Source of the DNA: a bacterium
GTDB lineage: Bacteria; Joyebacterota; Joyebacteria; Joyebacterales; Joyebacteraceae
Direction of reading: 5' to 3'
DNA: 64,000 nt
NCBI GenBank assembly: GCA_025774935.1
Contig: JALGZK010000013.1
Location: forward strand, 1 to 64,000
Below, one piece after another: positions 5,013-10,157 of the stretch; position 1 is the first letter of the stretch; the number at the start of each line of letters is the position of its first letter. Both the position numbers and the translations under genes were made by a program. The notes beneath the pieces are model-generated. The model did no database searches, had not been told where the DNA came from, and was given only the letters and a program-made list of their open reading frames with translations.

Positions 5013-6779
5013 TTACTGACGCGGAGCCACGCTCACCGCCTCAAACCTCACCCCCACCACCCACTCCTGCCCGGGCAGAGGGTACCCGGCCCTCGTCTCG
5101 TAGTGCGCGTTGAGCAGGTTCCTCACACCGACGTCAAGGCTCATGCCCTGCCAGGGGAGCGGCGCCGAGACCATCGCGGCCGCAACCGTGTACGACGGCA
5201 GCGTCTCCGTGTTCGCCCCATCGATCCAGACTGCGCTGACGCTGCGCACGCCTGCCTCCACCCGGACGCGACCCCACCGGCACCTCCACCAGAGATAGCT
5301 CTGCTCTTCCGGCCGGTACGGCGGCGTGAGTCCCGTGTTCACGTTCTCTGCCGTCGCGAAGTCACCCGAGTAGCCGACGGCGAACACGCCGAAGTCCGCA
5401 CTCAGATCGATCTCCCATCCCGAGAGGTCGACCTCGTCCTGGTTGCTGGGACGCCAGATGAAGTCGTCGCCCGACTCCCACACGATGAGGTCCGTGGCCT
5501 TCGACGAGTAGTACGTGATGGCGGCCGACCACGGACCGGAGCTCATCCTTGCGCCGGTCTCGGCGATCACGACGCGTTCGGGATCCAGCTCGGGGTTCCC
5601 CGCGGTCCACGGATCCTCAGGCCAGTAGAGCTCGTTCATGGTCGGGGCGCGGTAGCTCGATCCGATCGAGAGCCATGCGCTCCAGATCTCCTGCTCGTAC
5701 GCGGCACCGAGCGCGCCGGAGAGAGCGCCACCGAAGTCCGACGTGTGCTCGCCCGCCGCCTCGGCTGCGAGCTTGAAGAGCCCGGCCTCCCCTACCCAGC
5801 TCGCGACGGCCGTCCCGCTCCCTCGCGAGTGGACGCCGAGGTCCGCGTTCTCCGGGTCGCTGCTGTCGAGCTGCGAATAGTCGAACGAGGCGGTGATGTC
5901 GGCGCCGGGCAGTCCCGCCTCGGCGAAGTCGTACTTCGCAATCGCACCCGTGGAGTACGTGCGGTGGGTCGGAGACTGGAAGGAGTCCTCGAAGTGCTGT
6001 CGCCAGTAGGTCCAGTAGAACGTCGCCTCGGCCGACCCGAGGTTCGGGAGCCCGAACCTGAGGATCCTGAGCCTGTCCTCCATCGACCCCGCGAACGCCG
6101 CGTTGTACTGCGGCCCGGGGACGCCGCGGTCCATGTCGACCGCGGTCAGCGAGGCGTTCACGAACGGGTTCGCGTACCGGAACTCCCCACCCCACCCGAT
6201 GGAGGAGGTCGACTCCATGTACGGATCCCGCGAGAGAACGCCGAACTTCCAGCTGTAGTCCTTGCCCCCGTACCCGATCCGGTAGGCGTTCTCGTACGTC
6301 CCGACCGCACCCGAGATGGCGAGGCCGAAGCGGATCGGCGTCCGGAGGGAGACCGCCGCCTGTGCAGGAGTCCCCACCTCGAGCCGCGAGAACGGACCAC
6401 GCATGACCGTCCCCCTCGTCCCGAGGATCCCGAGGAGCGGAAGATCGAACGTCCCGTTCTGCACGCTGTTCAGGGGAACGCCGTCGTACTCCATTGCGAC
6501 GTGCTCGACGGGCAACCCCCGCACCGACGGGTACGCCGTCGTACCGTAGTTGCTGACCGGGACGTGGGGCGTCCACTCGAGCTCCCGAATGGGCTCGCCC
6601 TCGATCTGGCGGACTTCAGCGCTGAACGCCTCGAAGCGGACCGGGCGGTCCGAGGTGACGACGACTTCGCTTGCGTAGTACGTGGGGACGTCGTCCTCAA
6701 TGACCAGCTCGATGTCGAGGCTGTCGGCAGCAGTCGTCGAGAAGACAATCGCGGCCACGAGGCTCAGAACTGGTGTCAC
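5013..6779 (-). CDS. TonB-dependent outer-membrane receptor
   Basis: A 588-residue outer-membrane receptor that would import a siderophore, vitamin or similar ligand using TonB energy. GTG at 6779 is chosen: GGAGGA precedes it and a signal peptide follows (VLSLVAAIVFSTTAADS). SEVVVTSDRP resembles a BtuB-like TonB box. The plug domain runs to about residue 140 (YPSVRGLPVEHVAMEYDGVP). The rest is a beta-barrel that ends in the usual receptor style (GVRNLLNAHYETRAGYPLPG...VGVRFE). It is somewhat short for the family. It lies 141 bases downstream of the cytochrome gene on the same strand. No TonB/ExbBD or cognate ABC transporter is in the window, so the substrate is open. A diverged copy of its middle part lies at 1-100. 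Confidence 0.87.
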   Translation of the reverse strand: MTPVLSLVAAIVFSTTAADSLDIELVIEDDVPTYYASEVVVTSDRPVRFEAFSAEVRQIEGEPIRELEWTPHVPVSNYGTTAYPSVRGLPVEHVAMEYDGVPLNSVQNGTFDLPLLGILGTRGTVMRGPFSRLEVGTPAQAAVSLRTPIRFGLAISGAVGTYENAYRIGYGGKDYSWKFGVLSRDPYMESTSSIGWGGEFRYANPFVNASLTAVDMDRGVPGPQYNAAFAGSMEDRLRILRFGLPNLGSAEATFYWTYWRQHFEDSFQSPTHRTYSTGAIAKYDFAEAGLPGADITASFDYSQLDSSDPENADLGVHSRGSGTAVASWVGEAGLFKLAAEAAGEHTSDFGGALSGALGAAYEQEIWSAWLSIGSSYRAPTMNELYWPEDPWTAGNPELDPERVVIAETGARMSSGPWSAAITYYSSKATDLIVWESGDDFIWRPSNQDEVDLSGWEIDLSADFGVFAVGYSGDFATAENVNTGLTPPYRPEEQSYLWWRCRWGRVRVEAGVRSVSAVWIDGANTETLPSYTVAAAMVSAPLPWQGMSLDVGVRNLLNAHYETRAGYPLPGQEWVVGVRFEAVSVAPRQ

Positions 6780-6920
6780 GTGTCCTCCGTTCTTCCCTGG
6801 GGATTCCCATCGACGCCGGCTCAGGCACTCGTCGCGTTCTGCCCGGGCGTGCATGTGATCGCTCGCGGGTGCCGCGGCAGCCCGTCAGGTGCATTACCCT
6901 GCTGGAAGCCACATGCGGCT

Positions 6921-8768
6921 CTACTCCCTCTCCTCATCATCGACGTCGGTGGCGCCTCTGAGTAACTCTCTCAGAACCTCCTGATGGACCTTGCTGGTCT
7001 TCGCCTCTCCCCATCGCTCCTCCACGGTTCGCCAGAACATGGAGGGGGTCTCCTGATGACAACCCAGGCACACGTTGCTTCGCCCTATCTTCTCCATTTC
7101 CTCTCTGTTGAACGGTCTGGCTCCGACGTGGCTTGTCGCCTGAATCTGGCGCCCGTCTTCGTCCACGATGCGCTCCAATTCAAACGGGACGTCCACTCCG
7201 TTCCAGGCAGTTACGTAGTGACCGGAACCGAGTCCCAGTGCCTTGGGTTCGCTGTGGCAGTCTTCACAGGTGCGAGTCTCTCTGGAGACGGTGTGAGGCT
7301 GTATCGGATTATGGGCGATTCCGGAGTGTCCGTCCGCGGTCGTGAACACCTTGTTCAGCTCCACCGCCTCGCCGTCCTCACCGATCCGCGTGAAGATGGC
7401 CTGGCAGCCCGGAATGAAGGGGCTGACCTTGCCTTCGGAGTTGATGCCCAGGGTCGGCGTCTCCCATCTCAGATAGCTTCGCGATTCCTGCCACTTGTAG
7501 GTGCCGTCCTCGGCCGCGTCCACCCAGTCATAGCCTCTCTTCCCCATGTCCATCCTGGTATGGCAACCGTAGCACTGAGGCGCCCACCTCGAGTGGCATG
7601 CGTAGCACTCGAGTCCGTCCATGTGCCCCTCGATCTGCATGGCAACGGGCAGGGCGTTCCTCTCGTTCAACGAGCGGACCTGGGGAATCCGGTGGGTCCT
7701 CCCGCTGGTCTTGCCCCTGAGCACCGCCCCGTCATTCTGCTTCTCCGTGTTCGTCATGCGGTTGCCGCGAGACGTTGTCAGATCACTGTACTCGCCGAGA
7801 TTCCCGTGACAATCCGTACACTCCACCTCGACGGCCTGCTCGCGTTTGCTGTAGATGTTCCCGTCCCCATGAATGTCGTCCAACGTGTGGCAGTCGATGC
7901 AGTCCATGCCCGCCTCGAAGTGCAGGTCCTTCTGCAGGTGGTTGTAGTGCTTCCCGTGCAGCTTCGGCTGCTTGCCTCCGTCCGCAGCGAAAGGAGTCCC
8001 GTAACCGTCGGATTCCATCATCCCGAGGAAGCTCACTCCTGTCCTGCCGCCGCGGTTGTGGCAGTGAACGCATTGCTCCGCGGGTATCTTCGTCGTGATC
8101 TCATGCCTGATGGGATGGCCGGGCTCATCCCTGGGGATGGTGAGGTCGGCCGAGTGGCTCAGACCGTCATCCGCGTACAGGACGTGACAGGCCGAGCAAC
8201 CCGAGGCGCGATAATCCCCATGCCTCTTCGCGCCCTCTGTCCAGACATGACACCTCAAGCACTGGTTCCGTAGGTAGTCATCAACGGGCTGTTCCGACTC
8301 GCCGTAGTGAGGTAGTGCCTCGAGTTCCTCCAGGGCGCCCAGATCCCACGGAACGTCGCCGTCCTCGTCCCTGACCTGCCTGACTCCATAGAGGGCGTTC
8401 TTGTCCTCCTGCGCGGCCCAAAGGTATCGCGCCCCGCTGATGACCCCCGCGGAGGTTGCATGGAGGGACTTCTTCACCGTGCTCACGATGGCGCCGTGAC
8501 AGAGACCGCAGGTCTCTTCCACGATGTTGAGGTCGCCGGGATTGGGGTAGAGTCCCTCGTGGGCAGCGCCCCTGGCGCGAGCGTCGGCGTTACCTTGGTG
8601 GCAGTCCACGCAGGAGAGGGCATCGTGCTTCTCTCCAATGGACTCGATGCCCTGATGGCACAGGAGACAACCTTCGGGCTGGCTCTCATCTGCGAGCACT
8701 GCAGAGGTGGATGAGATTCCAGCCAGGAGGAAGACGAGAATGAGGGTTGCTGTCGGTCCTCTGGACAT
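6921..8768 (-). CDS. Dodecaheme c-type cytochrome
   Basis: A 615-residue exported multiheme cytochrome. ATG at 8768 has AAAGGAG upstream and opens a signal peptide (LILVFLLAGISSTSAVLA). I count twelve CxxCH heme sites: CLLCH, CVDCH, CGLCH, CLRCH, CSACH, CVHCH, CIDCH, CTDCH, CYACH, CYGCH, CEDCH and CLGCH, spread from about residue 34 to 575. No membrane helix is visible apart from the signal, so it should be periplasmic or extracellular. The role is inferred to be electron transfer or multi-electron reduction; no substrate is indicated. The upstream GNAT gene reads into it in the same frame without a stop, but this gene has its own ribosome-binding site and signal, so it is treated as separate. 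No cytochrome maturation genes are nearby. Confidence 0.9.
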   Translation of the reverse strand: MSRGPTATLILVFLLAGISSTSAVLADESQPEGCLLCHQGIESIGEKHDALSCVDCHQGNADARARGAAHEGLYPNPGDLNIVEETCGLCHGAIVSTVKKSLHATSAGVISGARYLWAAQEDKNALYGVRQVRDEDGDVPWDLGALEELEALPHYGESEQPVDDYLRNQCLRCHVWTEGAKRHGDYRASGCSACHVLYADDGLSHSADLTIPRDEPGHPIRHEITTKIPAEQCVHCHNRGGRTGVSFLGMMESDGYGTPFAADGGKQPKLHGKHYNHLQKDLHFEAGMDCIDCHTLDDIHGDGNIYSKREQAVEVECTDCHGNLGEYSDLTTSRGNRMTNTEKQNDGAVLRGKTSGRTHRIPQVRSLNERNALPVAMQIEGHMDGLECYACHSRWAPQCYGCHTRMDMGKRGYDWVDAAEDGTYKWQESRSYLRWETPTLGINSEGKVSPFIPGCQAIFTRIGEDGEAVELNKVFTTADGHSGIAHNPIQPHTVSRETRTCEDCHSEPKALGLGSGHYVTAWNGVDVPFELERIVDEDGRQIQATSHVGARPFNREEMEKIGRSNVCLGCHQETPSMFWRTVEERWGEAKTSKVHQEVLRELLRGATDVDDEERE

Positions 8769-8884
8769 AGGTTCCTCTCCTTTGCTGAATGCCCGCAGCA
8801 TGGCGGGCGACGAATCGCGAGTAAGTCGCGCGCGTTGCGCGAGTGCGGAACGCGCGACACCGATGTGTGCCAGCTCCGTGAACC

Positions 8885-9458
8885 CTACCCCCCCCCGCCT
8901 CCCCCGCCACTCCCTCTCCAACAGACTCATCATCACGAAGTCGCTGAACTCCCCTTCGTGGAAGTACCCGTCACGCTGCACGCCCTCGCGCACGAACCCG
9001 AGCTTCTCCCAGAACTGGATCGCGTCCTCGTGGAACCCGACCACGCCGACCGCCACGCGGTGCATCCCCATGTACTCGAACGCGAAGTCGAGGAGAAGCC
9101 GCCCGACTTCCGTCCCGTACCCCTTCCCCCACGCGTCGCGCTCGCCGATCACGATCGACATGTCCGTCGTGCGCCACTCGGGGAACATGCGCAGGAGCCC
9201 ACACTCGCCGATGACACCATCGTCCTCGTCCCTGATGATCACATACCATGCGCGCGACTCGTCGGCGACGACGCCCTCGAACCACTCCTCAGCCTCGGCC
9301 TCGCTCAGGGGCTTCGTCGCACCGATCATCCCGCGAAGCTCGGGATCGTCGAGCCACCGCCGGACGTGCGGAAGGTCCTCCCGCTCGATCTGCCGGAGCG
9401 TCACCCCGTCGCCCATGATGAACCTGGGACCCAGACGCCTTCGTTCGGATTCCCCCAT
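8885..9458 (-). CDS. GNAT acetyltransferase (RimJ/RimL-like), stop lost at a G9 run
   Basis: A GNAT-family N-acetyltransferase with LRQIEREDLPHVRRWLDD near the N-terminus, the acetyl-CoA loop region around ERDAWGKGYGTEVGRLLLDF, and the family's C-terminal phrase AIQFWEKLGFVREGVQRDG. ATG at 9458 overlaps the stop of the preceding methyltransferase (TGATG), so translation is probably coupled. After LLEREW the frame enters a run of nine G and continues with no stop into the cytochrome gene. If the run were one G shorter, a TAG at 8887-8885 would be in frame and give a normal 190-residue protein. The end given here is that expected stop. A sequencing error, a frameshift mutation or a slippery site are all possible. 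Confidence 0.75.
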
Positions 9459-10117
9459 CACGCCCCCTCCGTCACACGCTCGATCGAGTACACACCACCG
9501 CAGAACGAGATCTGCGTGTACTCGACGCGCAGTCCCGCCGACTCGAGCGCAGGCACGGCGGACTCTCCCACCCAGTACCACTCGTCATCGTCCCACACCT
9601 CCGACGACTCCCGCTCCGCTTCCAGAAGCTTCGCCGTCGGAAACGAGACGTCGCCGACAACGATCCGGCCGCGGGGAGCCAGGTGCCTCTCCGCGAGCCG
9701 CCCCACGAGCCGCACCTTGGAGTCGGGGTCGAACTCGTGGAAGACGTAGGCCGAGACGATCCGGTCGAACCGGCGGCCGGTGGCGAGAGGCCACTCGCCC
9801 CGGAGGTCGGCCTTGACGAGCTCGACCTCGGGCAGCCGCTCCCGCGCCTTCGCGAGCATCTTGACCGAGAAGTCCATCCCGCAGACAGCTGCCCCGGCCC
9901 GGACGACCCGCTCGGCCAGGGCCCCCGTCCCGATCCCGACGTCCAGGACCGTCATGCCCGACTCGGGCGCCGCCAGACGCACGATCGTGTTCAGGACCTC
10001 CTCGTAGCCCTCGAACGGGAACCCGCGGTCGTCTCTGACCGAGTCGTCGTAGCTCGCTGCCCAATCGTCGAAGAGCTTCTCCCGGTCGCCAGTCACGCGC
10101 TCCTCCTCAAGCGACAT
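9458..10117 (-). CDS. Class I SAM-dependent methyltransferase
   Basis: A 219-residue cytosolic methyltransferase, YrrT-like by general appearance. The SAM-binding motif I is VLDVGIGTGALAERV; motif II is near VCGMDFSVKMLAKARE; DRIVSAYVFHEFD is motif IV. The acceptor cannot be read from the sequence. ATG at 10117 is preferred over an in-frame TTG at 10144, though neither has a strong ribosome-binding site. It is first in a likely operon with the GNAT gene, whose start overlaps its stop, which suggests a shared small-molecule or protein modification role. Confidence 0.8.
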   Translation of the reverse strand: MSLEEERVTGDREKLFDDWAASYDDSVRDDRGFPFEGYEEVLNTIVRLAAPESGMTVLDVGIGTGALAERVVRAGAAVCGMDFSVKMLAKARERLPEVELVKADLRGEWPLATGRRFDRIVSAYVFHEFDPDSKVRLVGRLAERHLAPRGRIVVGDVSFPTAKLLEAERESSEVWDDDEWYWVGESAVPALESAGLRVEYTQISFCGGVYSIERVTEGA

Positions 10118-10157
10118 GGTACCCGCCGCCGCCTGACCCGGCAATCAGCTTCGGCAC

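Follow-up and report, generated by a model that had tools for sequence, protein, structure and literature searches.

Does the minus strand of this locus encode an acetyltransferase fused to a multihaem cytochrome, or two genes whose boundary has been displaced? In the window, by which we mean the whole 64,000-nucleotide stretch of a Joyebacteraceae contig analysed here, an uninterrupted open frame runs from the ATG of a GNAT N-acetyltransferase gene at 9458 to the stop of a cytochrome gene at 6921, spanning 845 amino acids. A first-pass annotation had reported that the GNAT gene loses its stop at a run of nine G and reads on in frame through the twelve haem sites of the cytochrome, and the sequence agrees on each point, with exactly 12 CXXCH motifs in the cytochrome. 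Very probably, however, the arrangement is not a new fusion protein, and reflects an ancestral stop displaced by an ordinary change in homopolymer length, arising either as a real mutation or as a one-base miscount.

The frame change is located at a G9 homopolymer at 8888–8896 on the minus strand (C9 on the plus strand), the single run of at least eight G within the window. A TAG at 8885–8887 directly follows it, one base out of frame. When the run was shortened to G8 in simulation, the GNAT product became 190 amino acids long and ended EWRGRRGG at this TAG, as the first-pass annotation had foreseen for a run with one G fewer. The simulated G9 gives the 845-amino-acid GNAT–cytochrome fusion, and G7 and G10 give products of 256 and 257 amino acids, respectively, with a different tail read in the other frame. 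At every simulated length from G7 to G10, the GNAT domain is intact and the cytochrome retains its own start.

The GNAT coding region, taken as far as the last G of the run (8888–9458, minus strand; 190 amino acids), carries a full-length PF13302 domain over residues 19–156 of 190 (E = 2.9e-24; 86.8 bits against a curated cut-off of 25.4), and by PF13420 the acetyltransferase domain reaches residue 175. Its dN/dS against the sister species is 0.20, and the body of the gene is, by sequence comparison, under constraint. Clear orthologues occur in two genomes of the same genus and in thirteen others of the family. The closest of them, in the same genus (L013/L003), is 88% identical and ends in TGGCGGGGGAGGCGGGGG followed by an in-frame TAG; it is the same sequence with G5 in place of G9, so that the two runs differ by four nucleotides, or by three if the true length here is G8. 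Of the family orthologues whose 3′ end is complete, all 14 terminate 5–18 residues past a conserved C-terminal tryptophan, their tails differ and none carries a G run longer than G5 at this end; the fifteenth (G001) runs off its contig and was left out of the count. The sister's in-frame TAG and the varied ends of the family orthologues thus show the TAG behind the run to be the old GNAT stop, lying in a tail under weak constraint. The comparison of this site in related genomes, proposed in the first-pass annotation, finds a sister with G5 and an in-frame TAG among 14 orthologues that all end at a stop of their own.

The spacer behind the TAG (8769–8884, minus strand) holds the cytochrome ribosome-binding site and is probably read in frame by chance. 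The 39-codon linker from the run to the cytochrome gene has a codon score of −0.18 in the fused frame, whereas GNAT scores 0.37 and the cytochrome 0.09; this value falls slightly short of the 5th percentile for true coding windows and yet lies within the top 7% of open shuffles. The linker is therefore not clearly coding, the rank among open shuffles being a weak hint that it is. When the linker is shuffled, about 31–34% of the resulting sequences are open in the relevant frame, and the chance of matching the frame of the cytochrome is one in three; since openness of this kind is so common, it is unremarkable that a frame whose stop has been displaced should read on into the cytochrome. A scan of the spacer returned no promoter or terminator match, and RNA folding at the junction is no stronger than in shuffles (z = −0.75). 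In the fused frame, the linker would contribute peptides such as GGVGFTELAHIGVAR.

The downstream gene (6921–8768, minus strand) encodes a 12-haem c-type cytochrome resembling ExtM. Its ATG at 8768 lies behind a Shine–Dalgarno-like AAAGGAGAGG and opens an N terminus that resembles a signal peptide, in keeping with the ribosome-binding site and signal that the first-pass annotation had ascribed to it. A perfect inverted repeat, GCCCGC-CATGCT-GCGGGC, is found just upstream of this ribosome-binding site (8791–8808, minus strand). The NCBIfam ExtM model (NF040943) matches with E = 6.4e-93, its 312 bits falling below the cut-off of 800, and the match begins near the cytochrome ATG (model position 11 at residue 23), which fits a separate exported protein. 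ExtM carries 12 haems and is part of the Geobacter extHIJKLMNOPQS cluster (PMC5877670). The cytochrome here shares with it the number of haems, a similar length and the match to the ExtM model, but scores well short of the model's cut-off as given above, and it lies between a GNAT gene and a TonB-type barrel gene, with no ext cluster shown. A search of the PDB with the cytochrome gave no match, and no homologue was found in the 19 other family genomes, which are all the other members of the phylum examined. It was probably acquired recently, and perhaps works with the adjoining barrel in electron transfer.

On the minus strand, the gene order is methyltransferase, GNAT, 12-haem cytochrome and TonB-type barrel. 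The SAM methyltransferase (9458–10144; Pfam Methyltransf_25, E = 1.4e-15) has a stop that overlaps the GNAT start (TGATG), and no DNA match to it was seen in the sister locus. The TonB-dependent-receptor-type barrel (5013–6854; PF00593, E = 1.4e-26) has a homologue placed immediately behind GNAT in the sister species (DNA match to L013 6740–6850). In that species, GNAT is conserved within L013 3209–5992 and flanked by neither methyltransferase nor cytochrome, the locus having been rearranged around it. Since the cytochrome is absent from the 19 relatives and the sister GNAT adjoins the barrel gene, the GNAT–cytochrome pair is, judged from these sequences, peculiar to the present genome among the 20 genomes of the phylum examined.

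Together these comparisons suggest the following course of events. GNAT ancestrally ended at the TAG that adjoins the G run. The run, about five G long to begin with, has lengthened to nine in the present species, and a growth not divisible by three has put the TAG out of frame by one base. The next 39 codons happen to be open, and in frame with the adjoining cytochrome gene. If G9 is real, the change would be a replication slip with little or no effect on fitness, in a variable C-terminal tail that leaves the GNAT domain whole, and GNAT would gain a tail of roughly 40 residues leading into the cytochrome signal peptide. The cytochrome would still be made, presumably for the most part, from its own start, and some of the long fusion may be made as well. 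If G9 is a miscount, the gene would simply be a GNAT of 190 amino acids.

Between these two causes, we lean, with modest confidence, towards a real slip, either fixed or mixed in the population. The alternative, a consensus or assembly error over a true G8, with a GNAT of 190 amino acids that stops at the TAG, is a serious contender that we hold to be less probable. It has the attraction that G8 restores at once, and in exactly its ancestral form, a stop that is conserved in the sister, and residual errors in long-read assemblies are mostly homopolymer miscounts (PMC8442456). The rest of the assembly gives it less encouragement. Runs of at least eight G number 42 in 3.24 Mb here, compared with 76 and 49 in the two genomes of the same genus, and are thus not enriched. 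We inspected the other 41 with a codon-usage frame model, in the stretches of sequence around the runs. All 16 of the other runs that lie within genes, four of them G9, keep frame, and two more, located at the margins of genes, are likewise consistent with their frames. About 190 kb of this genome yielded no further frame break of a single base; the one break elsewhere is a 5-base deletion and not a homopolymer change. These results indicate that homopolymer errors are not frequent in this assembly and tilt the balance somewhat from a consensus error towards a real slip, although they do not clear the G9 site itself, and 0 of 16 is compatible with errors in up to about 19% of runs. The natural length of the run has, moreover, clearly shifted since the split from the sister (from G5 to eight or nine), and for a run that changes length naturally in an unconstrained tail, out-of-phase lengths are to be expected.

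Four candidate frame breaks were checked in the course of this survey. Three proved to be ordinary gene ends, and the fourth is the 5-base deletion, at about 651 of L077 (about 1750 of G000:C24), which affects one member of a multi-copy family in comparison with its paralogues here and in both sister genomes. At another site (L051 1571–1578; G000:C1), a gene ends in G8, CG and an in-frame TAG, where a one-base change would displace the stop likewise.

The first-pass annotation had also raised phase variation. On this reading, alleles of G7, G8, G9 and G10 would coexist and toggle the product among a short GNAT, one with a different tail and a GNAT–cytochrome fusion. We consider this unlikely, although each phase does yield a distinct product. 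Polymorphism is common in Neisseria homopolymers of at least eight nucleotides (PMC5084427), the tract at a Campylobacter locus is most often G9 (PMC7168839), and because poly-G of such length varies in these genera, mixed run lengths in the population would be unsurprising. Little would be switched, however: the GNAT domain survives at every run length and the cytochrome can be started independently, which makes an on/off switch improbable. Nor is the long run conserved, reaching at most G5 in the 14 orthologues, or part of a genome-wide enrichment. We regard as very improbable the further case in which G9 is real and varies in the population so that some cells make an acetyltransferase joined to an exported 12-haem cytochrome, or alter cytochrome output through GNAT ribosomes overrunning its start.

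A natural fusion, or programmed slippage that makes both products on purpose, can be set aside with near certainty: the frame is open across the junction, but the pair is absent from all 19 relatives examined, the sister GNAT terminates at its TAG, the linker lacks a clear coding signature and the cytochrome signal peptide would be internal, behind a cytoplasmic enzyme. Transcripts of E. coli and Buchnera had homopolymer insertions at A or T only, and G/C runs showed no slippage (PMC5574713), which makes transcriptional slippage at the G9 unlikely too. The first-pass annotation had likewise doubted a natural fusion, and the orthologues that stop at this spot and a sister cytochrome-free GNAT locus support that doubt. 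Among its other options, true mutation and assembly error both stand, and phase variation with an effect and a programmed slippery site find no support in the intact domain, the independent cytochrome start or the relatives.

The locus matters mainly for annotation, where an automatic pipeline would report an acetyltransferase–cytochrome fusion of 845 or 886 amino acids that the relatives lack. Should the run prove genuine and of mixed length in nature, it would illustrate on a small scale how a homopolymer can lengthen at a tolerant gene end to the point of joining neighbours.

Two known classes of site invite comparison. Like the singleton fs-genes catalogued by GeneTack (PMC3711429), the present case is a frame transition found in one genome, absent from homologues and placed between genes with separate homologues, but here two frames are joined by a stop displaced at a G run, rather than one gene being broken. 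With the poly-G contingency loci of Neisseria and Campylobacter it shares a run of 8–10 G at which a one-base change alters the end of a protein; unlike them, it has the run behind a whole domain, has no on/off effect, does not recur in relatives and is known from one assembled genome.
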